From: Thermoplasmata archaeon
GTDB taxonomy: Archaea; Thermoplasmatota; Thermoplasmata; Thermoplasmatales; Thermoplasmataceae
Length of the DNA: 51,008 nt
Direction of reading: 5' to 3'
Assembly (NCBI GenBank): GCA_021817455.1
Contig: JAKAUW010000077.1
Location: 1-51,008 of the forward strand
Position numbers and translations under genes: made by a program. Positions 695-38,823 of this stretch are shown piece after piece (the stretch's first letter is position 1; every line of letters begins with the position of its first letter). Below the pieces are notes generated by a model. That model ran no database searches, was not told the DNA's origin, and saw only the letters and a list, made by a program, of their open reading frames with translations.

Positions 695-709
695 AAAAAA
701 ATTAATTTA

Positions 710-724
710 TTATTATATATATAC
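710..724 (-). promoter_or_regulatory. TATA box of the PKD-like protein gene
   Basis: An A/T-only block (gtatatatataata on the minus strand) is centred about 22-24 bases upstream of the ATG at 694. This spacing implies a leaderless or nearly leaderless archaeal transcript. Confidence 0.55.
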
Positions 725-775
725 TTTGTCATGTAGTTCATATCAGCCCTAAAGTTGACCCATCATTGAATGAAT

Positions 776-1024: not shown

Positions 1025-1164
1025 TCTCCAAATTTCCTGAACTTCAGAATATCTAACACCGTTGTCCTGACTTCATAACTGAGGATCTTCAGTTCATCAC
1101 TGGTAAAATCTCCCTTAACTATTATTGAAAGACCTGATTTTTCGTATAATGTTAAGGTAGTCAA
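1021..1164 (-). CDS. Small unknown protein, 47 residues
   Basis: The TTG at 1164 opens a 47-codon frame ending in TGA at 1021-1023. The start overlaps the previous stop (TTGA) and its stop overlaps the next start (GTGA), which is the main evidence that it is a gene. The product is mixed alpha/beta (begins MTTLTLYEKSGLSIIVKG, then a charged helix DELKILSYEVRTTVLDILKF). I do not recognise a family. Confidence 0.5.
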   Translation of the reverse strand: MTTLTLYEKSGLSIIVKGDFTSDELKILSYEVRTTVLDILKFRKFGE

Positions 1165-1346
1165 TTAACCACCCTGTTCCCGATATATTCAGTAAGGTTC
1201 TCCGCACCTTGACGATGAGAAATTTCAAGCATTCCAATTATCATGGCTATTCTTGCCTGTTCCCTGTATGATCGGCCGGTTTCCTTTCCTCTCTTCCTGA
1301 TTGCCATTGATAAAATTCTCGGAATCAGTAAAAATAGCAGCCTCAT
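1161..1346 (-). CDS. Small basic helical protein, 61 residues
   Basis: The ATG at 1346 overlaps the stop of the upstream gene in an ATGA, so I take this start rather than a longer in-frame reading that would run 115 bases into its neighbour. The N-terminus is hydrophobic (MRLLFLLIPRILSMAI), followed by a very basic stretch (RKRGKETGRSYREQARIA) and an amphipathic helix. It could be a peripheral membrane or nucleic-acid-binding protein. No family recognised. Confidence 0.5.
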   Translation of the reverse strand: MRLLFLLIPRILSMAIRKRGKETGRSYREQARIAMIIGMLEISHRQGAENLTEYIGNRVVN

Positions 1347-1624
1347 GGAGAAATCACCTTCTCTTTCAGCCTGCCCGATTCGATGGCTTTCAGAATATTC
1401 GCTATCCTCAATTGCGAATATGGCCTGACAATCCATTCGCCTGGCTGTATGGGACACCGCTTCCCGGAGAATGACTTATCAGCTCTGTTGCCTTCCTTGG
1501 TTATTCTAATGAAGATTTTCCAGTCTCTGTCCAGGTTATACCTGCGTTCTACTTCTTTCACGAATTCATCAGGATATCTCTGTGCCAGATCCATCCAGTT
1601 TTCAGAAAATGAAAATAGAGACAT
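1343..1624 (-). CDS. Unknown protein, 93 residues
   Basis: The ATG at 1624 is preceded by GGAGG about 11 bases upstream; a TTG one codon earlier is also possible. The protein is soluble, rich in charged and aromatic residues (WMDLAQRYPDEFVKEVERRYN near the start, GEWIVRPYSQLRIANILKAIE near the end). No family recognised. It begins five bases after the ribbon-helix-helix gene and overlaps the next gene by ATGA. Confidence 0.55.
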   Translation of the reverse strand: MSLFSFSENWMDLAQRYPDEFVKEVERRYNLDRDWKIFIRITKEGNRADKSFSGKRCPIQPGEWIVRPYSQLRIANILKAIESGRLKEKVISP

Positions 1625-1628
1625 CAAT

Positions 1629-2453
1629 TCAATTTCCTCCCTTGTATGGTTTCTCTATCCTGGTCTTGGCTTCATCCACTGTTATCTCAGGAGGATTCTG
1701 GTAGAATGGCATCATTTTCTGTTTGGTTTCCCTTTTAACGTTGTCTGAAAGGATCCTTGGAGAGAACTGTTTGAAGAAATCTGTTGGTGCTTCAGAGATA
1801 TTCTGATTGTATAGGAATTCCTTTTGAAATTGCTCATAATCGATTCTTAGGAAATATCTCTCAATCAGATCACTTTCAGATGGTACCAGCCATGTTTCAG
1901 GTTCACTTGGAATTAGCATATTGTTCTTCCCAATGTGCTTCCTTAGAATTCTGAAGGTGCTGTTTGTTGCTTTTTCTGTTAACCTGAAGCCTTGAGGTGT
2001 CTCTTCTACCTCATAGGCATGAATTCTCTTCTCAGCCATAAATTGTTTAACAATTGGAATCGGATCGATGGGATCTCTCTTCAGCACTCTAAAAATCCCT
2101 GATTGAACTAAAGACCTGAGATACCAGGCATGGCAGTCTGTTTCCAGGCTGATATCTAACCTTATTCTTGCTTTGTCTTCTACTCTGGCCTTAACGGATT
2201 TCCATTCGCTTTCCAGGATTGACAGTTTTTGCCTTGTTTCGAATATATCATTGTCCAGTTGGTGCAGTCTTGCTTCATCTGATGTTTGACTTTTGAGGGC
2301 CCAGAGAGATCTATTGACATAACCAGAGACATTGAAATGTGGTCCAAGCTCATCTATGAAGTCTTCCACTTCAGAATCTATTGTAATCTGGAGCCTACCT
2401 TTCCTCTTCATTCCTTCAGGTGGTCTCCCTGGTTTTGAATTCTTCTTGCTCAT
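1629..2453 (-). CDS. Ribbon-helix-helix protein with coiled coil, 274 residues
   Basis: The N-terminus is basic (MSKKNSKPGRPPEGMKRKGR), then comes a likely ribbon-helix-helix fold at about 20-55 (a LQITIDSEVEDFIDELG strand-helix, then VSGYVNRSLWAL). Residues about 65-100 form a charged coiled coil (QLDNDIFETRQKLSILESEW). The remaining 170 residues are an unrecognised mixed domain. By analogy with CopG/MetJ-type proteins it should bind DNA as a dimer, as a copy-number, partition or operon regulator. A GGAGGT ribosome-binding site lies about 8 bases before the ATG, and the start also overlaps the stop of the upstream 87-residue frame by ATGA. Confidence 0.6.
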   Translation of the reverse strand: MSKKNSKPGRPPEGMKRKGRLQITIDSEVEDFIDELGPHFNVSGYVNRSLWALKSQTSDEARLHQLDNDIFETRQKLSILESEWKSVKARVEDKARIRLDISLETDCHAWYLRSLVQSGIFRVLKRDPIDPIPIVKQFMAEKRIHAYEVEETPQGFRLTEKATNSTFRILRKHIGKNNMLIPSEPETWLVPSESDLIERYFLRIDYEQFQKEFLYNQNISEAPTDFFKQFSPRILSDNVKRETKQKMMPFYQNPPEITVDEAKTRIEKPYKGGN

Positions 2454-2713
2454 AACCGGGAGACCTCCGTTTCCTTTCTATGATCAGAGAAGAGAGAAGA
2501 AAGAAAAGAAAATGAATAATTAAATAAGTACAATAAGTAGCTATTTAATTGTCTGAAAAGTGCTGTAATACTGAATTTCTGAACGTGCTCCATTTGCAAT
2601 TTAGTGTGTATAGAATTCGGTAGGAGAATCTCTGACTGGTTCTGTGGATATTTCGTGTATGGTGGAATTATGTGTGTATAAAATTCTGGAGATTCGGAAG
2701 CGATAAGGATCAT
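2450..2713 (-). CDS. Doubtful 87-residue protein in the overlap chain
   Basis: The frame starts by ATGA overlap with the gene before it and ends by ATGA overlap with the gene after it, so it fits the chain exactly. The composition is less convincing: the second half contains a low-complexity hydrophobic run (LNSYLLYLFNYSFSFLSSLF) encoded by A/T-rich DNA that could instead be an internal promoter and leader for the ribbon-helix-helix gene. I recognise no family. Confidence 0.35.
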   Translation of the reverse strand: MILIASESPEFYTHIIPPYTKYPQNQSEILLPNSIHTKLQMEHVQKFSITALFRQLNSYLLYLFNYSFSFLSSLFSDHRKETEVSRL

Positions 2714-3039
2714 TGCCTGAACCTCCTGTTTTTATGATTCCCTGAATGGTTGGAATTCTTTATGCGCTGCTTTTGAACGTATTTCTCTCTCTGTATTCTC
2801 TGTTCAGGATCCGGAAAGAATGTAGTTTTGATATCAAGGGTCAAAGGATTCTTGCTTACAATGATGCAATCTTCCTGGTGCCTTGATTGCCAGATGGATA
2901 ATTGCCTCTCAGCTTCTGGGAGATCGTATTCAACTATGCCCATTACTTCAGGACTGTTTGCGGAAAGTGAGTATATCCTTCCAACCAGGATGACCCCGGT
3001 GATCTCCTGTTGAATCCTGTTATCCTGGATGGAGATCAT
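2710..3039 (-). CDS. Unknown protein, 109 residues
   Basis: A soluble protein with a beta-rich N-terminal half (ITGVILVGRIYSL, VMGIVEYDLPEAE, CIIVSKNPLTLDIKTTFF) and a lysine/arginine/asparagine-rich tail (QRIKNSNHSGNHKNRRF) that could bind nucleic acid. It starts by ATGA overlap with the 46-residue gene. No family recognised. Confidence 0.5.
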   Translation of the reverse strand: MISIQDNRIQQEITGVILVGRIYSLSANSPEVMGIVEYDLPEAERQLSIWQSRHQEDCIIVSKNPLTLDIKTTFFPDPEQRIQREKYVQKQRIKNSNHSGNHKNRRFRQ

Positions 3040-3176
3040 TCAATGGCCTCCAGAACTTCTCTATACACAATTGGAAATCTTCCAAATTCTATCTTGAATT
3101 CTTTAGCGAGTTCCTTGGCTGTATCGGTACCAATGCCTTCCTTGACACAGCTATTTAAGAAAGAATCTGGAATCAT
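3036..3176 (-). CDS. Small helical protein, 46 residues
   Basis: The ATG at 3176 shares its A with the TAA stop of the integrase (TAATG) and the TGA at 3036-3038 overlaps the next ATG, so translation of all three is probably coupled. The product is mostly helical and acidic/basic (DTAKELAKEFKIEFGRFPIV). Function unknown. Its place after the integrase is where excision regulators are often found, but no helix-turn-helix is clear. Confidence 0.5.
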   Translation of the reverse strand: MIPDSFLNSCVKEGIGTDTAKELAKEFKIEFGRFPIVYREVLEAIE

Positions 3177-4225
3177 TAAGGATAGCATGGAACTGCTACC
3201 TCCAGGTTCATATTGTTAGGGTAAAAAATCTCTGAAAAACCCCTAATCTCAACGGTCCCATCATATTCATGTTCAGTCCCGAGAATTATTTGAACATTCA
3301 TGTTCGAATCCACACTTTTACCCTCTAGTCGAAAAAAAGTCCCCAGGTGCTCTGACGTGTGCTTCGCCACCTCTCTTTCTCTCAGGTGAGTATAGACCTG
3401 CGTGGAGGAAAGGGACCGATGGCCCAAATGGATTTGAACCTCGCGGATGTCAAGCCTCTGTCCCCTGGAATCCCTTTTTAACAGGGTCGTGGCACACCAG
3501 TGCCTTGCAGCATGTGCATGGAATTTTGGCACTCCCGACTCCCTTGCAATGGATTTGACCATGTTCCTGGCATAGTTGTAATTCAGTCTTCCCACAGTGG
3601 TCGTGAAGAGGGCTTCCCTGTCAGTCTGGGACCGGTATTTGTCGATGTATTCATTCAACCTTTCAGTCACCGACGGCGGAAGACCTATGACTCTGGGAGC
3701 TTCTCCCTTCTCGCTTAAGACAGAGAGGAGATTGCCGTCGAGATCCGAGAGATTGAGCTTGATGAGCTCCCCTATCCTCAACCCACCCGCAAAGAGAACA
3801 TCAATTACGCACCTGTTCCTGGCTGAGATTGCACGATCCCCTGACCGGGTTGCGGTTTCCCTTATCCGGCAAACCTCATCATCCGTGGGTATCCACGGTT
3901 CCGCCCTGGCAGATTGCTTGAACCTCGGAATGGTCATGGGCTGGCCGAGAAACCTTGCCCATGCCTCAATGTCGTAAATGACATGGTTCAGGGTCTGTGG
4001 TTTCACCCCTCTTTCAGATTCGTTGACCAGCTCATCAAGGATGATCTCCATGTTCTCCTTTGGCGAGAGCATGTTGCAGATCTCTCCGAATCTCCTGATT
4101 GTCCTTACCTGCTTGGGGACCGTGGATGTTGAATGGTATCCGCCGTAAGTCCTTGCCCAAAGCCTGAACTCCAGGAGCTTCCTTTCCAGTTCCTGGTTCT
4201 TCCTTTCTCTCAATCTGGGGGACAT
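3176..4225 (-). CDS. Tyrosine recombinase (integrase)
   Basis: A 349-residue XerC/D-like site-specific recombinase. An N-terminal core-binding SAM-like domain spans about 15-105. The catalytic domain holds the full residue set: Arg in GGLRIGELIKL, HxxR in HAHAARHW, the second His in IHLGHRS and the nucleophile Tyr in STQVYTHL. About 75 residues follow the tyrosine, longer than in Xer proteins; the role of this tail is unknown. It presumably integrates and excises the element that fills the first 16 kb. The start at 4225 directly abuts the previous TAA. No attachment site could be identified. Confidence 0.9.
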   Translation of the reverse strand: MSPRLRERKNQELERKLLEFRLWARTYGGYHSTSTVPKQVRTIRRFGEICNMLSPKENMEIILDELVNESERGVKPQTLNHVIYDIEAWARFLGQPMTIPRFKQSARAEPWIPTDDEVCRIRETATRSGDRAISARNRCVIDVLFAGGLRIGELIKLNLSDLDGNLLSVLSEKGEAPRVIGLPPSVTERLNEYIDKYRSQTDREALFTTTVGRLNYNYARNMVKSIARESGVPKFHAHAARHWCATTLLKRDSRGQRLDIREVQIHLGHRSLSSTQVYTHLREREVAKHTSEHLGTFFRLEGKSVDSNMNVQIILGTEHEYDGTVEIRGFSEIFYPNNMNLEVAVPCYP

Positions 4226-4849
4226 TTAGGCCCCCCTTTCCTTATATTTCGCTTCGTACTCCAATTTCTTCACTCCCATACTTGAATTTATGGTACAGGT
4301 TCCAAAGAAGAGGCCGCCTGGAGGGAATCCCTCCAGCCCCATTCCCTGGTTTGCCTGATTTCTGGCTTTCACTCCTCCCGCGTCTATTCTTACGAGTTCC
4401 CCGGCAGGATCGAATGCAAAATCCCGGCACTCCTCCGGAAGACTGCGGAAATATTCTGGTCGGTCAATGAACCCGTTCTCCTGCAATTGAAAACTACAGG
4501 ATACTGCACCTGGCCCAAACGAATGCTCCAGGCGCTTCTTGGAATCTCTTCCCATTAGCGGACCGCCAAAAGTGGTGAGCCCCAGCCGGTCTTTCGCCGG
4601 GAAAATTTTATAAGTTGAATCGTGTAGTAAATGATGGCGAGCTCCTCTGCGTAACAAGAATAAGGTAAAATTGTCCACGTCACAGCTTGGAACAAGACTT
4701 GAAAAAGCTCTTAGGTTATGTTCCAAAATTACTTCGTATTCATTGGCAGCGTTCCTGCTGTACATGGTCATTGGTTCTCCCCTAGATGTTTCCCTCAAGG
4801 TTCCGATAAGCGGACCCTTTATTTGGCCGGCCATAGTTCTCTTTTTCAT
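4226..4849 (-). CDS. Unknown soluble protein, 207 residues
   Basis: I place the start at the ATG at 4849 because it overlaps the upstream stop as ATGA; an upstream in-frame start would run 55 bases into the neighbour. The protein begins MKKRTMAGQIKGPLIG and is soluble, with alternating charged and aromatic stretches (NEYEVILEHNLRAF, DRPEYFRSLPEECRDFAF) and three scattered cysteines. No family recognised. It directly precedes the integrase. Confidence 0.55.
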   Translation of the reverse strand: MKKRTMAGQIKGPLIGTLRETSRGEPMTMYSRNAANEYEVILEHNLRAFSSLVPSCDVDNFTLFLLRRGARHHLLHDSTYKIFPAKDRLGLTTFGGPLMGRDSKKRLEHSFGPGAVSCSFQLQENGFIDRPEYFRSLPEECRDFAFDPAGELVRIDAGGVKARNQANQGMGLEGFPPGGLFFGTCTINSSMGVKKLEYEAKYKERGA

Positions 4850-5796
4850 CTTTGTCGCCACCTTAGTCCCCGGAATCCTGTGGTGGAAACTCGGCTCCAA
4901 ATTCGCAAGATCTGTTCTCGATAAAGAAGTAGAACAATTGTGAGAAGACCAGCCCCCATGGCCAATTCGGCAAGGATGAAATGCCAGATCGGACCTGTGT
5001 ACATCCAGCCGAGCAGAGCATTAACTGCTGAAGCTGGTATCCACAGTATAGCGTTCAGAAACAATACAGATGAACTTTGGAGCGCAAGAAGAAAACCTCC
5101 CGAGGCTTTCCCAAGAAGACCGTTGTTGTGAACCCGCAAAACGTTTTTATCACATTTATCCCTAAACTCATGATATATATGCGAAGGGACAGAAAAGCCA
5201 GGAGAAAGAACGCCGTCAGGGCTGTTGTCAACGGCGCTGAAGCTGTTGGGGACGCCTATTCCGGAAATGACTTTGGTGCCGTTGTTAAGGGCGCTGAGGC
5301 CGGGTACTACGCCTACAAGACTATCAAGGTGAATCCTTCCACGAGAACCGTCAATGGAAAAAGGGTCAAGGTAAAAGGTTACTCCAGGAGACAGCGAGTC
5401 CGCCCCGGGAGAAGATGAGTCGCCTTCAGTCACCTCTGTGACCACTATTTCGTCCACCATCCTGTGGATTTCATCATCGGAAAAGTGGCACTTCATCTGG
5501 AACAGGATTTCGTTGAATATCCTGGAGATTGCGACCTCCCGTTTCTCATCCGTTTCAATCTTAACAGTGAACTGCTTCCCATTCACTTCCGTAGAAAAGG
5601 AAGTTTCCGGAAGTCCTTCTCTGCTCAGAAAAGAGCGTCTGCTGGATTCAAACCGCCTGGCATCCTCATCTGAGAAAAAAGATCCTCTTTCCGTGTATGT
5701 GCAGTTTGCTCTGGACCCATTGTACCTGAACGTGAAACTGAACTCATCGGGAACGATAAATTCATCCAGCTTCACAAAACCAGCTGTGGCTCTCAT
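4846..5796 (-). CDS. Unknown protein with C-terminal membrane helices, 316 residues
   Basis: Three parts are visible. Residues 1-126 form a charged soluble domain (for example EVNGKQFTVKIETDEKREVA). Residues about 127-210 are a Ser/Pro/Gly-rich low-complexity linker. Residues about 225-300 contain two hydrophobic helices (SGGFLLALQSSSVLFLNAIL and ILAELAMGAGLLTIVLLLY) before a basic end. It is therefore probably a membrane-anchored protein with its N-terminal domain on one side. It is coupled by ATGA overlaps to both neighbours. The linker is overprinted antisense by a candidate gene at 5170-5418. Confidence 0.6.
   Translation of the reverse strand: MRATAGFVKLDEFIVPDEFSFTFRYNGSRANCTYTERGSFFSDEDARRFESSRRSFLSREGLPETSFSTEVNGKQFTVKIETDEKREVAISRIFNEILFQMKCHFSDDEIHRMVDEIVVTEVTEGDSSSPGADSLSPGVTFYLDPFSIDGSRGRIHLDSLVGVVPGLSALNNGTKVISGIGVPNSFSAVDNSPDGVLSPGFSVPSHIYHEFRDKCDKNVLRVHNNGLLGKASGGFLLALQSSSVLFLNAILWIPASAVNALLGWMYTGPIWHFILAELAMGAGLLTIVLLLYREQILRIWSRVSTTGFRGLRWRQR
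5143..5150 (+). promoter_or_regulatory. TATA-like box for the antisense basic protein
   Basis: The gtttttat block, preceded by purine-rich gcaaaac as a possible BRE, lies about 24 bases before the ATG at 5170. This spacing matches the leaderless promoters elsewhere in the window. Confidence 0.35.
5170..5418 (+). CDS. Candidate small basic protein encoded antisense to its host gene
   Basis: An 82-residue frame (79 if the second ATG at 5179 is used) on the plus strand within the 316-residue minus-strand gene. The product is very basic: MRRDRKARRKNAVRAVV, then two similar segments (AVVNGAEAVGDAY and AVVKGAEAGYYAY), then a tail TVNGKRVKVKGYSRRQRVR. The internal repeat, the arginine-rich ends, the AGG/AAG/GCC-rich codons and a well-placed TATA box all argue for a real gene. 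The NGK...VKG tail resembles the two small basic proteins at 13.2-13.6 kb. Likely a nucleic-acid-binding or virion-type protein. The competing explanation is chance coding on the complement of a low-complexity linker. Confidence 0.45.
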   Translation: MIYMRRDRKARRKNAVRAVVNGAEAVGDAYSGNDFGAVVKGAEAGYYAYKTIKVNPSTRTVNGKRVKVKGYSRRQRVRPGRR

Positions 5797-6286: not shown

Positions 6287-9103
6287 TCAGTGCTCATAGA
6301 GAACGTAATGCAAAGCAACGTAATCCTCCGTGACAGCGATGTCAAAACCGTACATAGTGAATTTCCCGGTTTCAATATCAATTGATTTAACTGCAATGTA
6401 CTTTCCAATCAGGGGATCAAGGATCTTTTCTCCCAAGGACAAGTTCTGGGCAGTTACCCATCCAGTACTGGTCCAGACCTCTTGGCCTCTGGATATATTG
6501 AGTTCCCCGTTTATTAAATAAGCCACTGTTCTATTATCACTCTGCGTGCCAAGAACTTTCTCAACCTGCAGAGACCTGGATGTTGTGCTATAGGTCATAA
6601 TATCCATACCGGCAGAAACCTTGATTGCTAAGGCATAGGTTCCATTTGCAAGGAGGATCTTTGTGTTTCCACTCACGGAATTAAGTGCCTTAAAAGCTAT
6701 GTTGTAATTTGCGTTTCCACCGTTCACGGAAACTGTCCCGCTAGAGGGGGAACCGTAATAAGCCTGCCCATTTTGTCCCGTGGGAGGAATGGAAAACGAG
6801 AAATAGCCATTAGGTTCGCTGAAGGATATTGAACTTGGTGCATTTGTAGATTTTAGCACTCCCGCAAGTTTAGCAGACCAAGTTGTGCCACTGGAAAGGC
6901 CGCTTTCAGAGAAAGTCACCGTATAATACGCAGTTGGCGTAAACGTTATGACGACACTCACGCTTGAACTTCCAACGCTTACCGTACCACCGGAAGGACT
7001 CGCTGAATATCCCGATGGAACTCCCACGCTGTATGAGTAAGTCCCGGGAAACTCATGGAATGAGATCGAGGATGAAGTGGTAGATTCTGTGGCACCATTC
7101 AAGTTTACCGACCAGGACAGTCCATTCGCACCATTGGACGTGAAATTCACATAATATGTAGGGAAATTGAGATCAGAGGCTTGATAACTGCCCGATAAGC
7201 CAGTTTCGGTCCCTATGGAATAGGAGGGTGGAACCCCATTAGGGAAACCTGGCGATGCAGATATCCAGCCTATGTTATCATACGCCTGTCCTGCCCCGCC
7301 TGTCTGTATCCACGAAGCAATACTGAATGGCACTGGTGAAATAGTGGTGTCCGTCGAATTCCCGGTTTGTGCGCCGTTGTACAGGGTTGCCAAGGTTTCT
7401 CCGCCTACGTTGGCGAACGGCTGCCACTGCAATCCGTAATATCCAGGGTATGTCCATGTGTTCGTTATCACCGCACCATTATATGTGCCCGGGCTCCCAA
7501 CAAAAGAACTGACTGAGCCTGTGTCGCCAATCACATATGAACTTTCCAGCCCCCCGTCGCTGCCGACCTGAGTGCCTCCTACCCAAACCGTGGTCGTGCT
7601 GGCGGCAAGAGGATAGATCCCGGGCGCCCCGCTCTGCACTGTAACTCCCTGCAAGTAACCCTGTACATAGGTATTGGAAGGGAACCATTGCTTCGACTCA
7701 ACGTACGCATGATTGTAGTTTATCTCGCCAAAAAGCTTCAATCCATTGTTCACTGTCACGGAGGAAGAACCCGTAACTCCTGAAATCCATTTCGAGCTGA
7801 GAGAGCTTCCGGCAAAATTGTCGTAGAAATGGAAAATATTGGCGCCATTATCGTATTGTCCATAGGCGGCGGAGAGCTGCGGGGCTTCTCCCTCGTTGCC
7901 GTTGCTGCTAAGTAAGTTGATCGATGGGCTGGTGATTCCCATATAGATTGTGGCAGACCCGCCCTCCACCAGTCCAAACGGCATCTTCAGCCAGTATACT
8001 GTATTAGTGGCAGTGTTGCTGTTTCCGGATTCAATCCAGCTTGGTATTACTGTCCCCCCAACTGTGAACCATTCCACGTTTTGCAAATTAGGCGCCAGGT
8101 AACTGGAGTAACTATTACTGTCTACTGTAACAGGCTGGTCATAGGTATTGTTTGTGGCATAGTACTGCTGCGTATTCTCGATCGTAACAGGTACGTAGTA
8201 CAGCACATCCGACGGTGCGACTATTTCTCCCGTATTCAGGCTGGACACATCAACCGTGGTGCTCTGCGTTAAGCCTTCATAGGATGTGGATATTGTATAT
8301 GTTCCTGTCTTGACTATGTCGTTAAACTGGTAATAACCGCTGGCATCTGTGACTGCAGTACTCTCATATTTGCCCAAACTGGCAGTCACCGTTGCCCCGG
8401 CAATTGGACTCCCATTTGATAGTATCACCTTCCCACCGAGAGAAGTTGCATTCACGCAGATATTGGCATTCTGCCATTGAGGTATGTTATAACCGCCAGG
8501 AGGCCCTGTTGTCAGTGACGTATCCGTTGAGTTAACGTATCCGTACGGAGTTACATAAGTTCCCCATACACTATAAACAGTATTAGGCGCGGCGAAAAAC
8601 CTGTAGCTGCCATCCCTTTGCGGCGCGACCTGATAAATAGTGTTGTATATGGTGGAACCTTGGACCACGCTTTGTTCTATATTGATATAGGTATTTGTAG
8701 GATCGGCCGTTTTATAGCTTCCAAAGTTAAGGGATATTTTACCGGCAATCTCTGCTGCCGGCATTGCTGAGAAATTATAGTTGCTTATTGCCCCCTGATA
8801 AAGATCGCCAGCTGCCGATCCAACCAAATTATCAGCATAAAGTCTGAAGTTTATGAGATTATTGAAGTCGGTATAAGGAATGGTAACTTCGATCCTTGCA
8901 CCTGCGGAATAGACGTCTTGATTAATCCCCGGATTGTTGGAATTGTGGATTGACCCATTGACTATGGCGTAATTATCGTACAATGTGGAATTCCCGCTTA
9001 GCTGGGTCGCCGGAGCAGAAAATGCACCAGTGTACCCACCCCACAAATCGTAAGCTGTTACAGCTGGGATAAGAACTATCTCCGTACCAGTGATGAAGCC
9101 CAA
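6287..9103 (-). CDS. Giant surface protein, C-terminal part, ending in a Hint-like domain
   Basis: 938 codons from a TTG at 9103, but this is the in-frame continuation of the 9113-9694 gene across a TGA. Recognisable parts, in order: a carboxypeptidase-regulatory-like beta domain at about 222-290 (GGKVILSNGSPIAGATVTA); a DUF2341-like domain at about 302-430 (WIESGNSNTATNTVYWLKM ... YDNGANIFHFYDNF); a likely LamG/jelly-roll domain to about 640; two or more Thermoplasmata surface repeats (YYTVTFSESGLSSGTTWS ... SPSSGTVSVNGG) at about 650-808; and a Hint domain at 809-938. Many N-x-S/T sequons and aromatic residues fit an exposed glycoprotein. No signal peptide exists in this part; it lies in the upstream frame. 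Confidence 0.7.
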   Translation of the reverse strand: MGFITGTEIVLIPAVTAYDLWGGYTGAFSAPATQLSGNSTLYDNYAIVNGSIHNSNNPGINQDVYSAGARIEVTIPYTDFNNLINFRLYADNLVGSAAGDLYQGAISNYNFSAMPAAEIAGKISLNFGSYKTADPTNTYINIEQSVVQGSTIYNTIYQVAPQRDGSYRFFAAPNTVYSVWGTYVTPYGYVNSTDTSLTTGPPGGYNIPQWQNANICVNATSLGGKVILSNGSPIAGATVTASLGKYESTAVTDASGYYQFNDIVKTGTYTISTSYEGLTQSTTVDVSSLNTGEIVAPSDVLYYVPVTIENTQQYYATNNTYDQPVTVDSNSYSSYLAPNLQNVEWFTVGGTVIPSWIESGNSNTATNTVYWLKMPFGLVEGGSATIYMGITSPSINLLSSNGNEGEAPQLSAAYGQYDNGANIFHFYDNFAGSSLSSKWISGVTGSSSVTVNNGLKLFGEINYNHAYVESKQWFPSNTYVQGYLQGVTVQSGAPGIYPLAASTTTVWVGGTQVGSDGGLESSYVIGDTGSVSSFVGSPGTYNGAVITNTWTYPGYYGLQWQPFANVGGETLATLYNGAQTGNSTDTTISPVPFSIASWIQTGGAGQAYDNIGWISASPGFPNGVPPSYSIGTETGLSGSYQASDLNFPTYYVNFTSNGANGLSWSVNLNGATESTTSSSISFHEFPGTYSYSVGVPSGYSASPSGGTVSVGSSSVSVVITFTPTAYYTVTFSESGLSSGTTWSAKLAGVLKSTNAPSSISFSEPNGYFSFSIPPTGQNGQAYYGSPSSGTVSVNGGNANYNIAFKALNSVSGNTKILLANGTYALAIKVSAGMDIMTYSTTSRSLQVEKVLGTQSDNRTVAYLINGELNISRGQEVWTSTGWVTAQNLSLGEKILDPLIGKYIAVKSIDIETGKFTMYGFDIAVTEDYVALHYVLYEH
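6290..6679 (-). other. Degenerate Hint (intein-like) domain within the surface protein
   Basis: The last 130 residues match the intein/hedgehog fold layout. Block A reads SGNTKILLANGTY, block B reads GQEVWTSTGWVTAQNLSLG, and the final blocks read MYGFDIAVTEDYVALHYVLY then Glu-His and stop. Three catalytic positions differ from the usual ones: Ser instead of Cys near the start, Gln instead of the block B His, and no Asn after the terminal His. Splicing is therefore unlikely. Domain assignment is from pattern recognition only. Confidence 0.65.
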
Positions 9104-9112
9104 AGTATCTAT

Positions 9113-9694
9113 TCAACCTAGAGCCAGGGACCTAATCACTGCACTGTTAGTTGAGCCTGAATCGAGTGATCCAGTTGTATTTATTCCCCAGTTATATTTA
9201 TTTTGATATGTCTCAAACACATTTGAGGGCGCGTTACTTGTAATGAGGCCGAGTTGAATCACCCCTTGACCGCCACCTACATAGCCCTTCTCCGCACCTG
9301 AACCGGCAATTGGGATTTCGACATTCAGTTGATTATAGTTGCTATCATAGTACTCATGAAGGCCGCCCTGGCCCGTAGCTGCGATAACTGCGTTGTATAT
9401 ATCAAGTGCATTTCCACTACTTTGTTGCACAGTACCTTCATACCCACTCGGCAAAGAGTAAGGGCTTTCCGTGTAGTTGGGATTACCAGAAGTTATAGCG
9501 TACGACATATACACAGTTTGATTTCCATTATAGCCTGCCCAATCCTTGTGGATTGTATTTACAAATGTGTAACCTGAGGTTTGTCCTCTCGCTACTGAAG
9601 GCAACACAATCGTTAGTATTAGGATGAGAGAAATCAGAATGACCACTTTGGAAATGCTTTTTTGGCTTGCTACACTGTTATCATTTTGCATCAT
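9113..9694 (-). CDS. Giant surface protein, N-terminal part, ended by an in-frame TGA
   Basis: 193 codons with a clear N-terminal signal/anchor (KVVILISLILILTIVLPSVA) followed by a beta-rich exported region (IHKDWAGYNGNQTVYMSYAI, then a glycine-rich KGYVGGGQGVIQLGL). The stop TGA at 9113-9115 is in the same frame as the following 938-codon reading and only three sense codons precede the TTG used there, so the two are almost surely one gene of about 1,136 codons. The TGA may be a real nonsense mutation, a read-through site or a sequencing error (TGG would give Trp). It starts 17 bases after the 247-residue gene, probably in one operon. Confidence 0.65.
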   Translation of the reverse strand: MMQNDNSVASQKSISKVVILISLILILTIVLPSVARGQTSGYTFVNTIHKDWAGYNGNQTVYMSYAITSGNPNYTESPYSLPSGYEGTVQQSSGNALDIYNAVIAATGQGGLHEYYDSNYNQLNVEIPIAGSGAEKGYVGGGQGVIQLGLITSNAPSNVFETYQNKYNWGINTTGSLDSGSTNSAVIRSLALG

Positions 9695-9711
9695 AATAGT
9701 TGCTCCACTGA

Positions 9712-10455
9712 TTAAGTATCTTGAATCAATAGATTGATTGTTGAATGAACCGGCTCGCTCAATCCGTTCAAGGAAGCCACAAATTCAAGCTGGTCTGTGC
9801 CGCTAGTTCCCCCTACTAAGGGCATGTCAACCTCAAATTCTATTGTAAACAGGAAATGATACATATCATGGGAAGAAGAAACGAGAAAATTCTCCAAACC
9901 TATGTTCAAAGTGGTATTTTCTACTCCAACAAACGAATATCCCTTATAGAAGTTGAAGGAAATATTGCTTTCCATGGGGCCAGACACATTGGGCCAATAT
10001 GATGGTTGTCCTAGGGTATTTAGTGAAAGCATTGTATATGCATCTGGAGTACCATTTCCATTGTAGACTTTGGAAGCTCCGAGGTAAAGCGAAATTCCTG
10101 AAGGGTGTAGGTTCGGAGACAATGTTCCTCTTATCTGAATGCCAAGGGATGCAACAATCTGCCCATAATTTGCGTCATAAAAAACACCCCCATACAAAGA
10201 ATTCATAAAAGTAGATTTTGAACCATTTTTCTCTTGCATGGCTGACAAAGAGGAAAAGTTGTAAGAATGCACATTGGTCCCCGTACTTTCATAATTTACA
10301 AAATTTCCGGAAATCGTTGCATTTGTGGTTGTGTCCCTAACGGTTAAGGGAACTTTGACACAAATCAACTGGTAAGAAACTACAGACGATATAATCAGGG
10401 CAATGACTAAGCCAATTGCAAGGTATTTTATAAGTCTGCGTTTGTTCCCTTCCAT
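9712..10455 (-). CDS. Membrane-anchored exported protein, 247 residues
   Basis: Residues about 9-32 form an N-terminal anchor after a basic start (MEGNKRRLIKYLAIGLVIAL), and the rest is a beta-rich exported domain with many N-x-S/T sequons. No family recognised. A TATA box 26-33 bases upstream of the ATG indicates that this is the first gene of a transcript that also carries the giant surface protein 17 bases downstream. Confidence 0.65.
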   Translation of the reverse strand: MEGNKRRLIKYLAIGLVIALIISSVVSYQLICVKVPLTVRDTTTNATISGNFVNYESTGTNVHSYNFSSLSAMQEKNGSKSTFMNSLYGGVFYDANYGQIVASLGIQIRGTLSPNLHPSGISLYLGASKVYNGNGTPDAYTMLSLNTLGQPSYWPNVSGPMESNISFNFYKGYSFVGVENTTLNIGLENFLVSSSHDMYHFLFTIEFEVDMPLVGGTSGTDQLEFVASLNGLSEPVHSTINLLIQDT

Positions 10456-10488: not shown

Positions 10489-10569
10489 TTTATTGTGATT
10501 AAATTTTAAACGGCTATTTTCTGGAACTGTGTTGCATAACTAATGCAATAATTCTTCTTGAAAATAGGA

Positions 10570-10599
10570 TGGGTGTTGTTTGTGCAAGACAACAACCCA
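10570..10599 (+). promoter_or_regulatory. Stem-loop around the transposase start codon
   Basis: The arms tgggtgttgtt (10570-10580) and acaacaaccca (10589-10599) pair with one bulged base, and the GTG codon at 10582 lies in the 8-base loop. It could limit translation of the transposase. Confidence 0.4.
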
Positions 10600-11487
10600 A
10601 TAGTTCAGGGAAAGAGGGATAATAAAAGGATATGGTCCCTCTACAACGAATCGCTTGTCAGACGCATGAAAGATATCCTTGACCTCAAGGATATTGGGGA
10701 TTACAGGCATGATCTGAAGTATCAGAGCCGGGGGAAGAAGGGAAGACCCTTTATTCTTCCGGATAAGATCATTGAGATCCTGGCAAGGATCAGGGCGGTC
10801 TTCAATGCATCATTCAGATCCCTGGTATCCTATCTGAGAATATTCCAAGAGATTCTTGGAGTGCCAAGAATCTCCTACACATCAATATTCAGAAGAATAA
10901 GGGGGATCAAAGTGCCTGAGATCATGAATCCATCCTCTTCTGTTGCAATAGATTCTACAGGTTTCAAGACCACCATCAGAGGTGACTGGATGTCCAACAA
11001 ATGGGCAAAGAAGAGGAAGGGATGGATCAAGCTTCATGTCTCGGCAGACACAGAGAGGATCATGGCATCCCGGATATCGCTGACAGCAGAGCACAGCCAT
11101 GATGCCACTCAGTTCGGTAAACTTATCACTGGATCGGAACAAAGGGTATTCGCAGACAAGGCATATGATTCCAGGAGCATCTTCAATTTATTGAGGAATA
11201 ATGACAGCGAGGCCATTATTCCCCTGAGGAAGAACTTCAGCACCTTATCAAGAGCATCTCCTCTCAGGGGTAAAACAGCAAGGGAGATCAGGAAGCTTGG
11301 GGAAGAGGAATGGAAGCGTGTCCATGAATATGGAAAGAGATGGACGGTGGAGATATATTTCTCAGGCCTTAAGCGGGTAATGGGCGAGATCATCAGGGCG
11401 AAAAGAACGGATTACATGATCCAGGAAGTCGGACTGAAGGTGCTCTATTACAACATCATGAGAGAAAATACAAGAGCATATGGGTAG
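10582..11487 (+). CDS. DDE transposase of insertion sequence 1
   Basis: About 301 residues from the GTG at 10582; a TTG at 10558 is in frame, but alignment with the transposase at 38.8 kb begins near the GTG. The catalytic acidic residues are visible: Asp in AIDSTGFKTTIRGDW, Asp in VFADKAYDSRSIF and Glu in RWTVEIYFSGLKR. This is an IS4/IS5-superfamily DDE layout with a short N-terminal helical domain (TSIFRRIRGI). It appears intact. A stem-loop (10570-10580 with 10589-10599) has the GTG in its loop. Confidence 0.85.
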   Translation: MQDNNPIVQGKRDNKRIWSLYNESLVRRMKDILDLKDIGDYRHDLKYQSRGKKGRPFILPDKIIEILARIRAVFNASFRSLVSYLRIFQEILGVPRISYTSIFRRIRGIKVPEIMNPSSSVAIDSTGFKTTIRGDWMSNKWAKKRKGWIKLHVSADTERIMASRISLTAEHSHDATQFGKLITGSEQRVFADKAYDSRSIFNLLRNNDSEAIIPLRKNFSTLSRASPLRGKTAREIRKLGEEEWKRVHEYGKRWTVEIYFSGLKRVMGEIIRAKRTDYMIQEVGLKVLYYNIMRENTRAYG

Positions 11488-11655
11488 TTGCGCAACACAG
11501 TTATTTTCTGGGACAAATTTAAATAACCCAACATTTAGGAGAGGAGTTAGCTTATTGGAAAATCGGAAGTCCTGTTCCTATGGTTAACTTGGAGTCTACG
11601 CCTTTCCTAATATATCGAGAAATTTTATAATAAAGTCCGCCCGATAGAATTTGGG

Positions 11656-12006
11656 TTAAGGGATGAATTTGATGATTACTTTTACAGCGGTGATGATGCC
11701 AAGGAACAGCCCAATCAGGACGAGGATCCCAAGAACTGCACCGAACAGGCCAAGGGAGCTTACCGCGATAACTCCGGTTTGGATAATTGAATTATATGCA
11801 ACAGCTATGGCATTGAATACAGTGCCCAAAACCGTCAGGAACGCTGCGACAGCATCCTTGACGAAGCCTTCAACAGTGGAAAGTGCTGCGTTCCCAAGCC
11901 ACCTTGCTATGTTCCCGACTGTGTCATTGTAAATTGTGCTTGGGCCCACCCAGAAGGTTGCTACGATTGAGGACCAGAATGCAGAAACAATTGACCAGCC
12001 TGACAA
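11656..12006 (-). CDS. Membrane protein of the seven-gene module, 116 residues
   Basis: Starts at a TTG at 12006 with GGAGTGA six bases upstream. Residues about 1-80 are amphipathic helices (VEGFVKDAVAAFLTVLGTVF), and 80-113 contain one long hydrophobic segment (LGLFGAVLGILVLIGLFLGI) that could be one or two spans. No family recognised. It is the last gene of the module, six bases after its neighbour. Confidence 0.6.
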   Translation of the reverse strand: MSGWSIVSAFWSSIVATFWVGPSTIYNDTVGNIARWLGNAALSTVEGFVKDAVAAFLTVLGTVFNAIAVAYNSIIQTGVIAVSSLGLFGAVLGILVLIGLFLGIITAVKVIIKFIP

Positions 12007-12012
12007 CAGGCA

Positions 12013-12270
12013 TCACTCCAGGAAGCTGTTGATCGTCGTGGTGATCAATAGCATCACGTATACAGCCATCACCAGTATCCCAATGGTGAGGATCAGGAAA
12101 ATAGGCATCAGCATCCCAAAAGAAAGCAGTCCGTGCGCATATGAAATCAGGACCTGCTGTATTGCATTTCCTGTATCGGAGAATATGGTGTCGGCGAATG
12201 AACCGTAAATTGCTAAAACTGAACCAAAAAAATAAAGAAAAATTTGGGAAATGAAGGTTAAGGTATCCAA
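12013..12270 (-). CDS. Two-span membrane protein, 85 residues
   Basis: A TTG start at 12270 immediately follows the TAA of the previous gene. Two hydrophobic helices are visible, around 6-25 (ISQIFLYFFGSVLAIYGSF) and 50-80 (LLSFGMLMPIFLILTIGILV). No family recognised. Confidence 0.55.
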   Translation of the reverse strand: MDTLTFISQIFLYFFGSVLAIYGSFADTIFSDTGNAIQQVLISYAHGLLSFGMLMPIFLILTIGILVMAVYVMLLITTTINSFLE

Positions 12271-12729
12271 TTAGACATCCTCTACTTCTTCCGCTACGTC
12301 CTTTTCACCTGCATAGAGAGCCATGAACATCTGAAGCACGAAGAAAGTCATTGCCAGGATCGCAACCATGACCAGAGGGGCAAAAATGCCCGTCTGGGAA
12401 ACTACAGCGAATCCCCAGCCCTGAAATACTTCAGTGAATGATGTTCCGATCCCGCCCAGGATATCTGAAATCAGGCCTTCGATGCCTTTCAGGATCGAGT
12501 TGCCGAACCCGATGGCCATCTGGTAAAGGCTCTGCCAGATATTGGAACCGTTAATTCCTGTGCTATTGGAAGAGGTAGACGATGCCTGCACTATCACTGA
12601 AAGGTGGACCTCCACCAGCTGTGGTGTGGCTCCCTGTGTTTGCATTCCTGCAGTGCCCATTCCCGCAACCCCGAAGGTTACAAGGAGGAGCAGTGCAATT
12701 GGGATCAGGGCCATCGTCAACCTTTTCAA
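12271..12729 (-). CDS. Exported membrane protein with signal peptide, 152 residues
   Basis: The start is taken at the TTG at 12729, five bases after the previous stop, because it supplies the basic MKRLT that precedes a hydrophobic signal (LIPIALLLLVTFGVAG). An ATG five codons later is the alternative. A polar Ser/Thr/Asn stretch follows, then an amphipathic region (FGNSILKGIEGLISDILGGI), then a transmembrane helix near the end (FAPLVMVAILAMTFFVLQMF) and an acidic tail. No family recognised. Confidence 0.6.
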   Translation of the reverse strand: MKRLTMALIPIALLLLVTFGVAGMGTAGMQTQGATPQLVEVHLSVIVQASSTSSNSTGINGSNIWQSLYQMAIGFGNSILKGIEGLISDILGGIGTSFTEVFQGWGFAVVSQTGIFAPLVMVAILAMTFFVLQMFMALYAGEKDVAEEVEDV

Positions 12730-12734
12730 GACCT

Positions 12735-13202
12735 TCAGCTCCCTGCTGCCTTTTTAGAAGAGACAATGTACGTCGAGTTGTGATTCCACACTGCCGAAAT
12801 CAACAGGACAAAGAACAGCACCAGTACCGTCACCAGGAAGAACATGGCAAGGTAATTGCCGTGCGCAACCGGAACCAGTACATACTGTCCAAAGTAGAAC
12901 TCCTGACCAAGAAATCCTCCAAGGAAGCCTCCTATGATCAGGGCTGCAAAGAACCTTATCACCAGTGACAAGAATCCTGCTCCAGGAGGGGTGTACATCT
13001 CAATGACTGCCCAGAAAAAGGCAAACACGAGAAGCCCGAACCCCATGGAGCCCTGTGAGACAACGTAAGCGTGGTTCAGGAACTCGACTTGAGGCGGAAG
13101 CAGGATTATGCCTATCATTCCCAGGGCGATGATGCCTCCGAAAAGAAGGGCAAATGCGTCCAGTCTTCCGTTCCTCAACTTATATTTCTGAACCTTTGAC
13201 AT
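12735..13202 (-). CDS. Four-span membrane protein, 155 residues
   Basis: A basic N-terminus (MSKVQKYKLRNGRLD) precedes four hydrophobic helices: about 17-35, 52-70, 78-100 and 115-140 (LAMFFLVTVLVLFFVLLISA). The third is glycine-rich (ALIIGGFLGGFLG). A GAGG ribosome-binding site lies upstream. Function unknown; it is the most hydrophobic protein of the module. Confidence 0.65.
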   Translation of the reverse strand: MSKVQKYKLRNGRLDAFALLFGGIIALGMIGIILLPPQVEFLNHAYVVSQGSMGFGLLVFAFFWAVIEMYTPPGAGFLSLVIRFFAALIIGGFLGGFLGQEFYFGQYVLVPVAHGNYLAMFFLVTVLVLFFVLLISAVWNHNSTYIVSSKKAAGS

Positions 13203-13213
13203 TGCCTCGACCT

Positions 13214-13420
13214 CTATCTCTTTCTCTTCTTTGCTGACCAGGTGAAGCCTTTCACGCCCTTCGCCTTTTTGCCGTTGGCACTGTCTACCTGCCTGTCGTG
13301 GGTCGTGATGTCGTACTTGTCGGGTCTCTCTTTCTTTCCGTCGTTGACCTCGATCCAGTACTCATCCATCCCCTTGGACATGTTTTTCCTGCCAGCGGCT
13401 CCTACTGAAAATCTCTTCAT
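13214..13420 (-). CDS. Small basic protein, 68 residues, shared tail motif
   Basis: Highly basic (MKRFSVGAAGRKN start, FTWSAKKRKR end). The C-terminal third, VDSANGKKAKGVKGFTW, matches IDSQNGKLAKGSTW in the next protein upstream, so the two are probably paralogues. Likely a nucleic-acid-binding or packaging protein, by composition only. An AGGTGA ribosome-binding site precedes the ATG. Confidence 0.6.
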   Translation of the reverse strand: MKRFSVGAAGRKNMSKGMDEYWIEVNDGKKERPDKYDITTHDRQVDSANGKKAKGVKGFTWSAKKRKR

Positions 13421-13429
13421 TCAGATCAC

Positions 13430-13642
13430 CTACTTCTTGTGCAGGACGATTCTTGTGCCGTCCGCAGCAATTACTTCCCTGGACTCGCCTTTCTTCATTT
13501 TTGTCCAGGTACTCCCCTTAGCCAGCTTTCCATTCTGTGAGTCGATTTCCCTCAGCTTTGATCCTTCCCGGCCTTTGTAGTCGGCCTGAAGTGCCTGGGA
13601 AATTGCCTCGTCAGTCGCTTTTGAGAATTTGTGATATCCCAT
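13430..13642 (-). CDS. Small basic protein, 70 residues, shared tail motif
   Basis: A helical N-terminal half (FSKATDEAISQALQADYKG) is followed by the motif IDSQNGKLAKGSTWTKMKKG and a short beta-like end (VIAADGTRIVLHKK). It is a paralogue of the 68-residue protein over the motif. A GGAGTGA ribosome-binding site lies 8 bases before the ATG. Function unknown. Confidence 0.6.
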   Translation of the reverse strand: MGYHKFSKATDEAISQALQADYKGREGSKLREIDSQNGKLAKGSTWTKMKKGESREVIAADGTRIVLHKK

Positions 13643-13670
13643 ACTTATTTCACTCCTAACTTTCTATTCC

Positions 13671-14474
13671 TTACTTGCTCGATCTCTTCTTCCGGCTCTC
13701 CGGAAATGCTTCCTGCTTCACCTTTGAGACGGTGAGCCTGAAGAAAGGCAGAATTATGATTGTCAGAGCTAACAGTCCAATTCCGCCTCCAACGTATCCT
13801 ATGTCCTCACCAATCTGGTAGAGATCAGAGGACGAGGATGCTCCATACACATAATTGTGCACTGTGAATGCAGTATCAGGTGCCTGGCTGAATTTCAGGA
13901 CAACAAAGATGTTGCTGCTCTGATTTCCCGTCAGCATCATGGCCTGTACATCCATAGTGGCAGTGAACCCTGCTGTGCTGTTCCCGGTAATGTTCCCCTG
14001 CACCATTGCGGTGAGGTTTACATTGTCGCCTGAAGCGGAACCGTACTCAAGCGTTGCCGATGAGAGGTTTGCAGCTCCCGTAATGTTCTCAACGAACTGA
14101 GAAACACTGTAGGAGTTGAGGTTTCCGACTGTCAGGTTGGTTTCCAGAACCATTGTGGCTGGGTACACTGTCTTGGAAGTCGTGGTGTTGTTCACGCCTG
14201 CAACTGTCACAGTATACGACGGGGTCACAGTTGTCGTCCCATTCACCGATGCAAGCACCAGTGGGTGGTACGAACTGTTGCCCTGGCCATATGCATAGTC
14301 AACTGCAGACTGGTTGGTCAACACCAGGTGGCTGGCATTTCCGGAGAGAAAAGTCATTCCAGAGACTGACGCAGGTACTACGCCAACCGCTACAATGACC
14401 GCGAGAAGAGCAACGTAAGCAATCCGTTTTGCTCTCGGATCTATCTTCGTCTTAGGTCCTTTCGCTTTTGCCAT
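13671..14474 (-). CDS. Type-I membrane protein with a large exported domain, 267 residues
   Basis: The start at 14474 (MAKAKGPKTKID) is fixed by GGAGG eight bases upstream; an earlier in-frame start would remove that spacing. A signal or anchor lies at about 18-40 (IAYVALLAVIVAVGVVPASV), followed by a 170-residue Ser/Thr/Asn-rich beta domain with many sequons, a transmembrane helix at about 225-250 (GGIGLLALTIIILPFFRLTV) and a basic cytoplasmic tail. I infer a surface glycoprotein. It is the first gene of the module. Confidence 0.65.
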   Translation of the reverse strand: MAKAKGPKTKIDPRAKRIAYVALLAVIVAVGVVPASVSGMTFLSGNASHLVLTNQSAVDYAYGQGNSSYHPLVLASVNGTTTVTPSYTVTVAGVNNTTTSKTVYPATMVLETNLTVGNLNSYSVSQFVENITGAANLSSATLEYGSASGDNVNLTAMVQGNITGNSTAGFTATMDVQAMMLTGNQSSNIFVVLKFSQAPDTAFTVHNYVYGASSSSDLYQIGEDIGYVGGGIGLLALTIIILPFFRLTVSKVKQEAFPESRKKRSSK

Positions 14475-14495
14475 TAAGGCTTTCCTCCAGTACAA

Positions 14496-14796
14496 AGAAT
14501 GAAGTCATTTGCTGATATAGTTGCTTATAGAATTTTAAGCGTAAAAATCAACTGGAGATGTCGGAATCTCCTTTGTCACGAGAAAAAATTGATTAGTATC
14601 TTGTGAGTTATTCTCCAAAGCGTGGGCATCTGATAATAGAGGAATATAGGGCCCAATAGAACGGATAGTAACCCAGATTTCAAATTCAAAAGACTAGGAA
14701 CTTCTCAATTAAGCAAGAATACGTTTAAAGACTCAGAGAGAAATAATGAAAGTAGCATGCCTCACGTATGACTATTGTAAAAATCACCAGTTGCCA
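14496..14796 (-). other. Gene-free stretch with a stem-loop
   Basis: No convincing gene on either strand. On the minus strand a perfect 6-bp stem (14554-14559 with 14566-14571, loop of 6) is followed by a T-rich run (gattttta), which could end transcription from the 119-residue gene. A TATA-like cttataaa/taaaatt block near 14525-14540 may serve the 267-residue gene, whose leader would then be about 25-40 bases. Confidence 0.35.
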
Positions 14797-15156
14797 TTAT
14801 GCTTCATGTTCAATACTCCTAAAGACTCCAAAAACAAATATCATAACAATATCTGCTAAATAGATATACTGAAAATATGCAAATATTCCAAAAACCAAAG
14901 CCCAAGAAATAAAAAAGCTTGCCATCAAGAACGACAACGGGGGCACAAATGCTGGTCTAGCCACAATAGAATAGAAAAATAGAGGTACTACGGATAACGC
15001 ATAGACAAAATAAAATAGAAACCATCCGAATTCTGTAGGGCTGTTCCCTGCAACAGAGCTATAGCTCAAGTTCAAAAGATAAAAACTAAAAAAAAGTAAG
15101 ACGATAGATAATATGGCCTGAACTTTATAAGCATGGTACATACGGACTTCACTCAT
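14797..15156 (-). CDS. Multi-span membrane protein, 119 residues
   Basis: Three to four hydrophobic helices are visible (AILSIVLLFFSFYLLNLSY, FGWFLFYFVYALSVVPLFFY, FLMASFFISWALVFGIFAYF and IYLADIVMIFVFGVF). The ATG overlaps the stop of the preceding gene by 8 bases, so the two are co-translated and probably act together. No family recognised. Confidence 0.6.
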   Translation of the reverse strand: MSEVRMYHAYKVQAILSIVLLFFSFYLLNLSYSSVAGNSPTEFGWFLFYFVYALSVVPLFFYSIVARPAFVPPLSFLMASFFISWALVFGIFAYFQYIYLADIVMIFVFGVFRSIEHEA

Positions 15157-16003
15157 ATTGAGTTATATATTCTGTTAGGCTTATAGCAGTTCCGCTCCCG
15201 ACCGAGTGATCGTACAGAGTAACGTCTGCCCAAAGCGAATAGGGACATCCCATTATGTCCAAGCATGTGGCTTGGTTAGATGCGTATATTGTGTCGTGAA
15301 CATATACTGTCGCAACGCCAGAATTATACACAGTTATCTGAATTTCAGGAAATACATCCCAAGTGTCGTATCCATCCCAAGGAAAAACACCTTCGAAATG
15401 TGCACTTTCTGTGAAAGTGTAAGAAGTAGAGGTGCTTGAACTACTTTGACTTTGGGAAATCAGTCCCCAGTCGTAAATTGTCGCATCAGCCACTGCATTG
15501 TAACTGTCTGTGTGGCTTACCACTGTTCCGCCAGGTCCAGTGAAAGTGACAAACAGTTGAGCTGCGATATAATACAGATTAAAATTAACTGAAGGTAGGT
15601 CCTTTTCTTGCAAATTAGCTGATGCAGAGTAAGTCACCACGGTACTACCGCCGCCACCACAGGGACAAGCAGTGCACCCGGGTCCTGCAACACAAAGTGG
15701 TGATAGAATGGCAAAGTCAGTACTAGATGGCTGAGAGGCAATAGGTGTTACAGTCGGGTCAATGGAATAAGTTGAATTCGGTTCAAGGCTGAAAGAATCA
15801 AAGGAGAGGGACAGAATGTTGATGGAAGGGGTGGCTATGAGAGTTCCTGGACTGGAAAGCAGATGAATTTCATCAATCCAGGAAACACCAAGTTCAGTGG
15901 CAATTTCACCTAAATTAGTATAACCATTTTTCATTGTATATTCAAGAATCCTCTTATCAGTCACGTCTAAGTGTTCTTCAGTGTTCATAACTTTCACTCT
16001 CAT
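15149..16003 (-). CDS. Protein with HTH-like N-terminus joined to an exported-type beta domain
   Basis: 284 residues. Residues about 10-43 read like the start of a winged helix-turn-helix (LDVTDKRILEYTMKNGYTNL then EIATELGVS). The rest resembles secreted beta-sandwich proteins: Thr/Ser/Tyr/Gly-rich strands, a cysteine cluster CVAGPGCTACPCGGGG and a second pair (CLDIMGC) that could form disulphides. No convincing signal peptide or anchor lies between the two parts. Either a regulator domain was fused to an exoprotein, or the N-terminal likeness is fortuitous. It is coupled to the 119-residue membrane protein. Confidence 0.55.
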   Translation of the reverse strand: MRVKVMNTEEHLDVTDKRILEYTMKNGYTNLGEIATELGVSWIDEIHLLSSPGTLIATPSINILSLSFDSFSLEPNSTYSIDPTVTPIASQPSSTDFAILSPLCVAGPGCTACPCGGGGSTVVTYSASANLQEKDLPSVNFNLYYIAAQLFVTFTGPGGTVVSHTDSYNAVADATIYDWGLISQSQSSSSTSTSYTFTESAHFEGVFPWDGYDTWDVFPEIQITVYNSGVATVYVHDTIYASNQATCLDIMGCPYSLWADVTLYDHSVGSGTAISLTEYITQYE

Positions 16004-38810: not shown

Positions 38811-38823
38811 GTGATTGGTTTGT

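Follow-up and report, generated by a model that had tools for sequence, protein, structure and literature searches.

What kind of genetic element would need seven tightly packed genes, five of them coding for membrane proteins, in a genome of the Thermoplasmata? The module in question (genes G, F, E, D, C, B and A, in that order, minus strand, positions 14474 to 11656) lies in the window, the whole stretch of 51,008 base pairs (bp) that was analysed, which is the entire contig C93 of a draft Thermoplasmata genome labelled G000. We consider it fairly probable that the module is the envelope and morphogenesis part of a family of integrating Thermoplasmata DNA viruses, probably enveloped and non-lytic, because the elements of this family carry an integrase, a replication block, a giant anchored spike with PKD repeats, two membrane proteins and a viral-type ATPase, and are targeted by clustered regularly interspaced short palindromic repeats (CRISPR). 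The genes of the module are the following:

13671-14474, minus strand: G, an exported protein of 267 amino acids with an N-terminal hydrophobic segment, 12 N-x-S/T sequons and a C-terminal membrane helix.
13430-13642, minus strand: F, a basic protein of 70 amino acids, net charge +6, accessory.
13214-13420, minus strand: E, a basic protein of 68 amino acids, net charge +10, accessory.
12735-13202, minus strand: D, a membrane protein of 155 amino acids with four spans.
12271-12729, minus strand: C, 152 amino acids, TTG start, amphipathic with a C-terminal membrane helix and a conserved acidic tail, E-x-D.
12013-12270, minus strand: B, a membrane protein of 85 amino acids with two helices, TTG start.
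11656-12006, minus strand: A, 116 amino acids, TTG start, one amphipathic-hydrophobic stretch and a hydrophobic C-terminus.

The packing described in an earlier note on this DNA, with gaps of 0-28 bases and several TTG starts, was confirmed (the spacers from G to A measure 28, 9, 11, 5, 0 and 6 bases, and TTG is the start codon of C, B and A), and hydropathy and net charge agree with its count of five membrane proteins and two small basic ones. All seven genes are recovered by a coding-potential gene caller. Compared with a 92%-identical copy in the genome G079, nonsynonymous rates (dN) of 0.005-0.054 stand against synonymous rates (dS) of 0.20-0.66 across the seven genes; since dN/dS is well below 1 in every one of them and the changes fall mostly at third codon positions, they represent real proteins under purifying selection. 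The best-conserved member is D, with invariant W, E, T, R, G and A residues, while A, B and C are mutual paralogues (hhalign, 96-99%), and C, with hydrophobic helices at its N- and C-terminus in the hydropathy profile, is a candidate for the main shell protein. The same note had assigned these proteins to no known family, and the searches bear this out, as no Pfam family passes for any module protein, no NCBIfam family for the five membrane proteins, and the sole match in PHROGs is a weak one of C to phrog_37257 (3.8e-4), of unknown function. PADLOC reports no defence gene among D and G, and Rfam no structured RNA within the first 20 kilobases (kb) of the window.

In regard to the question whether the seven genes form a unit, about 20 further module loci were found in other Thermoplasmata genomes, their surroundings were fetched, and the encoded proteins were clustered into families (designated f). 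The recurrent order starts with the integrase, the small proteins f12-f6-f13-f15, G with D, and then C, B and A, and continues with the very large exported protein f2, f8/f24/f16, f3, f5, f17, f10, the ATPase f7 and f9. G and D form a single fused protein in the majority of relatives. E and F were found in G000 and G079 only and are therefore regarded as accessory. The unit of seven, as first proposed, is thus real and packed in the window, but the natural unit is larger, consisting of G, D, C, B and A together with downstream genes missing from the window copy. A search of the 117 genomes of the order finds C in 10, a single genome having as many as five copies, and the D profile matches 15 of the 400 genomes of the class, other families and orders included. 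Named relatives include the metagenome-assembled genomes (MAGs) TL2-2.bin24 (G105), FK3.bin88 (G092) and LSA5.bin55.

Almost every stretch that extends far enough has a large anchored surface protein behind the module. This spike, f2, measures about 820-2842 amino acids, held PKD/Ig arrays in both examples scanned, and its complete copies usually begin with a signal-like helix and end with a membrane helix. Most stretches with the surface protein also carry an ATPase related to those of spindle-shaped viruses or pleolipoviruses. Further downstream, f3 combines a signal with a C-terminal anchor, as does His2 gp30 at the matching position. What looked like a merger of families f1 and f5 was rejected, its source being one chimeric open reading frame (ORF) in G079:C32 (L153 1781-3055), in which the N-terminal half of the G-D protein continues without frameshift into the C-terminal half of f5, and where C, B, A, the spike and more are missing; the element is defective or the assembly is faulty at this place. 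In one element, repeats of about 60 bp with a TTTATAA box and a GGAG site stand directly upstream of several operons (G079:C41, L020/L037, at 273194, 284255, 295031 and 300253; L125 429-483), and could represent a shared promoter or a recombination site.

The most informative gene is the ATPase, which decides the interpretation of the module. The f7 family matches PHROG 5484, annotated as 'DnaA-like' (6e-12), and the lemon-shaped virus LSV-48N in tblastn (4e-19); its hidden Markov model finds LSV-48N (2.6e-34), SMF1 (1.8e-12), SSV1 B251 (1.2e-8) and His1 (4.5e-4), and profile-profile comparison gives 99.2%. The viral-contig, phage and plasmid collections held no f7 relatives beyond LSV-48N and fuselloviruses, and a profile search of the PDB with C and f7 returned nothing meaningful. 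The ATPase of G000 itself is also of the spindle type (C17:7226-8278, outside the window). In three elements (G069 at 0.52 Mb, designated G069C1a, G079 C48 and G039 C69) f7 was not seen, and its position is taken by f38, which matches the ORF8-type ATPase of pleolipoviruses in profile-profile comparison (98.2%, 5.9e-14, 229 columns) and, in the one element scanned, contains a helix-turn-helix as does His2 gp33. Short f38 matches in G167 and others were rejected as ATPases, since they correspond to a small f17-like domain; the ATPase of G167 is an f10-f7 fusion. Among the neighbours of the ATPase, f5 aligns with pleolipovirus ORF7 over 45 columns (52.6%, E 1.4e-4), with control pairings at or below 5%, the next best profile at 5.0%, and ORF7 against 22 other element families at or below 2.6%. 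On the other hand, f3 gives only 1.4% against pleolipovirus ORF6 despite its like position and topology.

An ATPase beside a membrane module could also point to a conjugative or contact-dependent DNA-transfer element, in which the module would build a transfer pore. Integrative conjugative elements, as is generally known, combine a membrane complex, a P-loop ATPase and an integrase, and this layout is shared by the elements studied here; yet their ATPase is closest to virus ATPases, and Pfam scans that covered part of the proteins of several elements found no VirB4, TraG/TraD, HerA/FtsK or relaxase family, so that we hold such a transfer role for quite improbable.

The mobility of the family is evident from several sides. 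The integrase family of the window matches the integrase of LSV-48N (8.5e-11) and that of SSV1 (3e-5) in profile search, and in four elements the integrase adjoins a transfer RNA (tRNA) gene, although no tRNA lies next to the integrase in the window. Matching of tRNA 14-mers revealed no exact attL/attR repeats in the fetched stretches. In the single-contig genome G069, a stretch of 18,976 bp recurs at 99.9% and at a spacing of 29,432 bp, as far as the end of the contig, which would correspond either to tandem copies or to a co-assembled circular form; the contig stops inside the second copy of the 29.4-kb element (G069:C1:1810703-1859109, L024/L023). The earlier note had considered that a stable chromosomal locus devoid of an integrase would speak against an element; instead, the mobile DNA at the site beside an NRAMP-type transporter gene differs among the congeners G000, G079 and G080, and G080 has its module elsewhere.

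Host CRISPR arrays add to this picture. Three arrays from the relatives G104, G097 and G060 contain 107 spacers, nine of which match the elements when 80% or more of the spacer must align with 80% or more identity, as opposed to none of the 107 against 186 kb of chromosome or shuffled elements. The arrays were retrieved through one matching spacer each, so that part of the nine matches reflects this selection. Among the genes hit are those of the spike, f7 and the integrase, and also C in the element of G105. Many spacers of these arrays (L222 9848-13429, L223 9067-12033 and L224 4587-5056, in three Thermoplasmatales genomes) are of unknown origin, and such orphan spacers can help to trace other viruses that infect the same hosts.

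With an integrase, a tRNA-linked site in relatives, a patchy multicopy distribution and targeting by host CRISPR, the family represents integrated mobile elements, that is, proviruses or plasmids. The opposite view, that the module is a host membrane complex for secretion or S-layer assembly at a fixed chromosomal site, could draw on its conserved housekeeping neighbours (the transporter and, at a greater distance in the window, genes for ribosomal proteins and RNA polymerase). However, it is already contradicted by the patchy, multicopy and integrase-linked distribution, with so few genomes of the class matching and up to five copies in one of them, as well as by the CRISPR targeting, by a module 92% identical to that of G079 beside a flank of only 70-80%, and by the module-free mobile DNA at the same site in G080, and we regard it as highly improbable.

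The surroundings of the copy in the window are the following:

11653-14607, no strand assigned: block common with G079:C41:284332-287286, 92% DNA identity with sharp ends, in a chromosomal flank of 70-80%.
10525-11502, plus strand: insertion sequence with a transposase (10558-11487), 18-nucleotide terminal inverted repeats and a 9-bp target duplication, ATTTTCTGG.
6287-10455, minus strand: exported-protein set, g13 (10455-9712), g12 (9694-9113) and g11 (9103-6287, 938 amino acids).
4846-5796, minus strand: g08, 316 amino acids, two C-terminal hydrophobic stretches, with a relative in the G079 C48 element.
3176-4225, minus strand: tyrosine recombinase of the Phage_integrase family (PF00589, 1.1e-26).
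776-3039, minus strand: replication/regulation block, f6 (3039-2710), f13 (2453-1629), f15 (1627-1343) and a helix-turn-helix-like gene (1024-776).
2-694, minus strand: start of an exported spike-family protein, running off the contig end.

Only one copy of D is present in the G000 genome. The genes f8-f3-f5-f48-f10-f7 are found at C17:414-9699, with 84-86% identity to the corresponding section of the G079 element, and no spike of this element type was seen in the window or in the C17 stretch. Since the module is separated from f3, f5 and the ATPase, and such a spike was seen in neither stretch, the copy in the window is in all probability a remnant or a rearranged part. Positions 34-3060, a stretch that runs off the contig, share 87.5% identity with the beginning of the G080 element. 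The structural module in the window has therefore probably become detached or rearranged and lies beside the start of a second element (integrase at 4225), and this copy need not be a functional virus.

Relatives of g13, g12 and g11 also lie beside the module in contigs C41 and C48 of G079, and this set may stand in for the spike. Comparison with G079 suggests that recombination at the 3' end of A exchanges surface-protein genes; at G079:C41:296825-297068 a 3' fragment of A follows the g13-g11 genes, and in the window an intact A precedes them. The insertion sequence was rejected as the creator of the junction between A and g13, as it has its own target duplication, and it entered after this junction existed. 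Its terminal inverted repeats and target duplication mark the insertion as recent and clean. A related insertion sequence at 38815-39769 is 72-78% identical to it in parts. By eye, the C-terminal part of g11, of about 130 amino acids, looks like a degenerate Hint (intein/hedgehog-type) domain, which no Pfam model reports, and just outside the module, positions 15149-16003 encode an N-terminal AsnC-type helix-turn-helix with an exported-looking domain.

How, then, could such a module work? A possible course of assembly, budding, receptor binding and packaging can be proposed from the observed gene content, order and conservation, the viral-type ATPase, the integrase and the CRISPR targeting. 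D, with its four spans, would insert into the host membrane together with C, B and A, forming a curved protein-lipid shell, G and the spike would project outwards and bind the next host, while the ATPase with the membrane protein f5 would load the genome during budding, without lysis.

Several points weigh against a virus. No particle has been seen, and ATPases of such a type could also serve a plasmid. The synteny search proposed in the earlier note, successful in Thermoplasmata genomes, found no relatives among IMG/VR viral contigs, and phage and plasmid records contain none of D or of the G-D fusion. Comparison by hhalign of sequence profiles of the N- and C-terminal parts of the spike and of G with six pleolipovirus spikes stays below 2%, thus revealing no VP4-like fusogen, and C, B and A reach at most 0.6% against fusellovirus VP1/VP3 and His1 VP21, the spindle capsid proteins. 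D, with four spans and upstream of the spike, gives 0.1% against five VP3 proteins (hhalign). With profile-profile comparisons negative, it was rejected that D, G, C, B or A is directly homologous to structural proteins of the pleolipoviruses or spindle-shaped viruses compared. AlphaFold models were too poor for use, with a mean predicted local distance difference test (pLDDT) score of 45 for the fused G-D protein (four admissible sequences) and 42 for f5 (two sequences).

Some of these points also fit the alternative of a plasmid that spreads in membrane vesicles, with the module shaping the host membrane into DNA-filled vesicles and with no receptor-binding, virus-like entry. Archaeal plasmids borne by vesicles encode membrane proteins and have no classical capsid, a likeness that comes from general knowledge and not from sequence; a membrane-only shell with no recognisable capsid or fusogen, the absence from viral contig collections, and a replication block with cargo (the restriction-modification methylase of the G069 element) would all fit. 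Such plasmids differ, however, from elements in which a giant anchored PKD spike occurs so regularly and the ATPases are specifically related to those of viruses, and we consider this explanation rather unlikely, although the functional distance of such a plasmid from a pleolipovirus would be small. Both possibilities were contained in the earlier suggestion of a virus structural part or a vesicle-borne plasmid, which is supported by the integrase-bearing elements, the surface protein, the virus-related ATPases and the CRISPR targeting.

Returning to the integrating virus family as the preferred reading, no Thermoplasmatales virus with this module is described in the searched papers or in the phage, plasmid and viral-contig collections, and the element family appears to be previously undescribed; the hallmark proteins of the two known groups, the VP4 fusogen and the spindle capsid protein, were not detected. 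More tentatively, and with chances that we place below even, it could be a new virus family with a shell of its own, built from the three paralogues C, B and A, each with an amphipathic part and a membrane helix, and from a G-D fusion, none of them related to a known capsid or fusogen. In the course of evolution this shell would have been paired with two non-orthologous packaging ATPases, from the lineages of spindle-shaped viruses and pleolipoviruses. If true, it would link two archaeal virus lineages usually treated as separate. The exchange of ATPase types behind one membrane module makes the relation of both groups directly testable, and likewise that between enveloped viruses and vesicle-borne plasmids, and the family supplies host genomes for testing particle production (G069, a single contig, G105 and G092).

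Among known systems, spindle-shaped viruses (Fuselloviridae, Halspiviridae and Haloferax LSV-48N) share with these elements a homologous ATPase (LSV-48N, SSV1 B251, SMF1 and His1), a related integrase, tandem small hydrophobic proteins and a large surface protein, but differ in gene order and in their end-filament protein, to which the surface protein of the elements shows no relation by profile. LSV-48N makes particles of lemon shape, yet has no ORF that looks like a known capsid protein (PMC12714723); the lack of a known capsid is therefore not unusual here. Pleolipoviruses have a core of VP3, the spike VP4, ORF6, ORF7 and an ATPase (PMC10599561). The new elements differ from Pleolipoviridae in the extra paralogues C, B and A, in a spike that is a giant PKD-repeat protein, in a size of about 20-30 kb, in an ATPase mostly of the spindle type, and in that no VP4-type fusogen or VP3 homologue was detected. 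On the other hand, the homologous ATPase of three elements and the weak match of f5 to ORF7 point to Pleolipoviridae, and the succession of spike, signal-and-anchor protein, two-span protein and ATPase corresponds to the pleolipovirus order spike-ORF6-ORF7-ORF8 (PMC10599561). As in the new elements, a small four-span membrane protein stands ahead of the anchored spike in Pleolipoviridae (HRPV-1, HRPV-3 and His2) and in Thalassapleoviridae (AvPV1), and integrases adjoin tRNA genes both in AvPV1 (PMC10919331) and in the elements described here.

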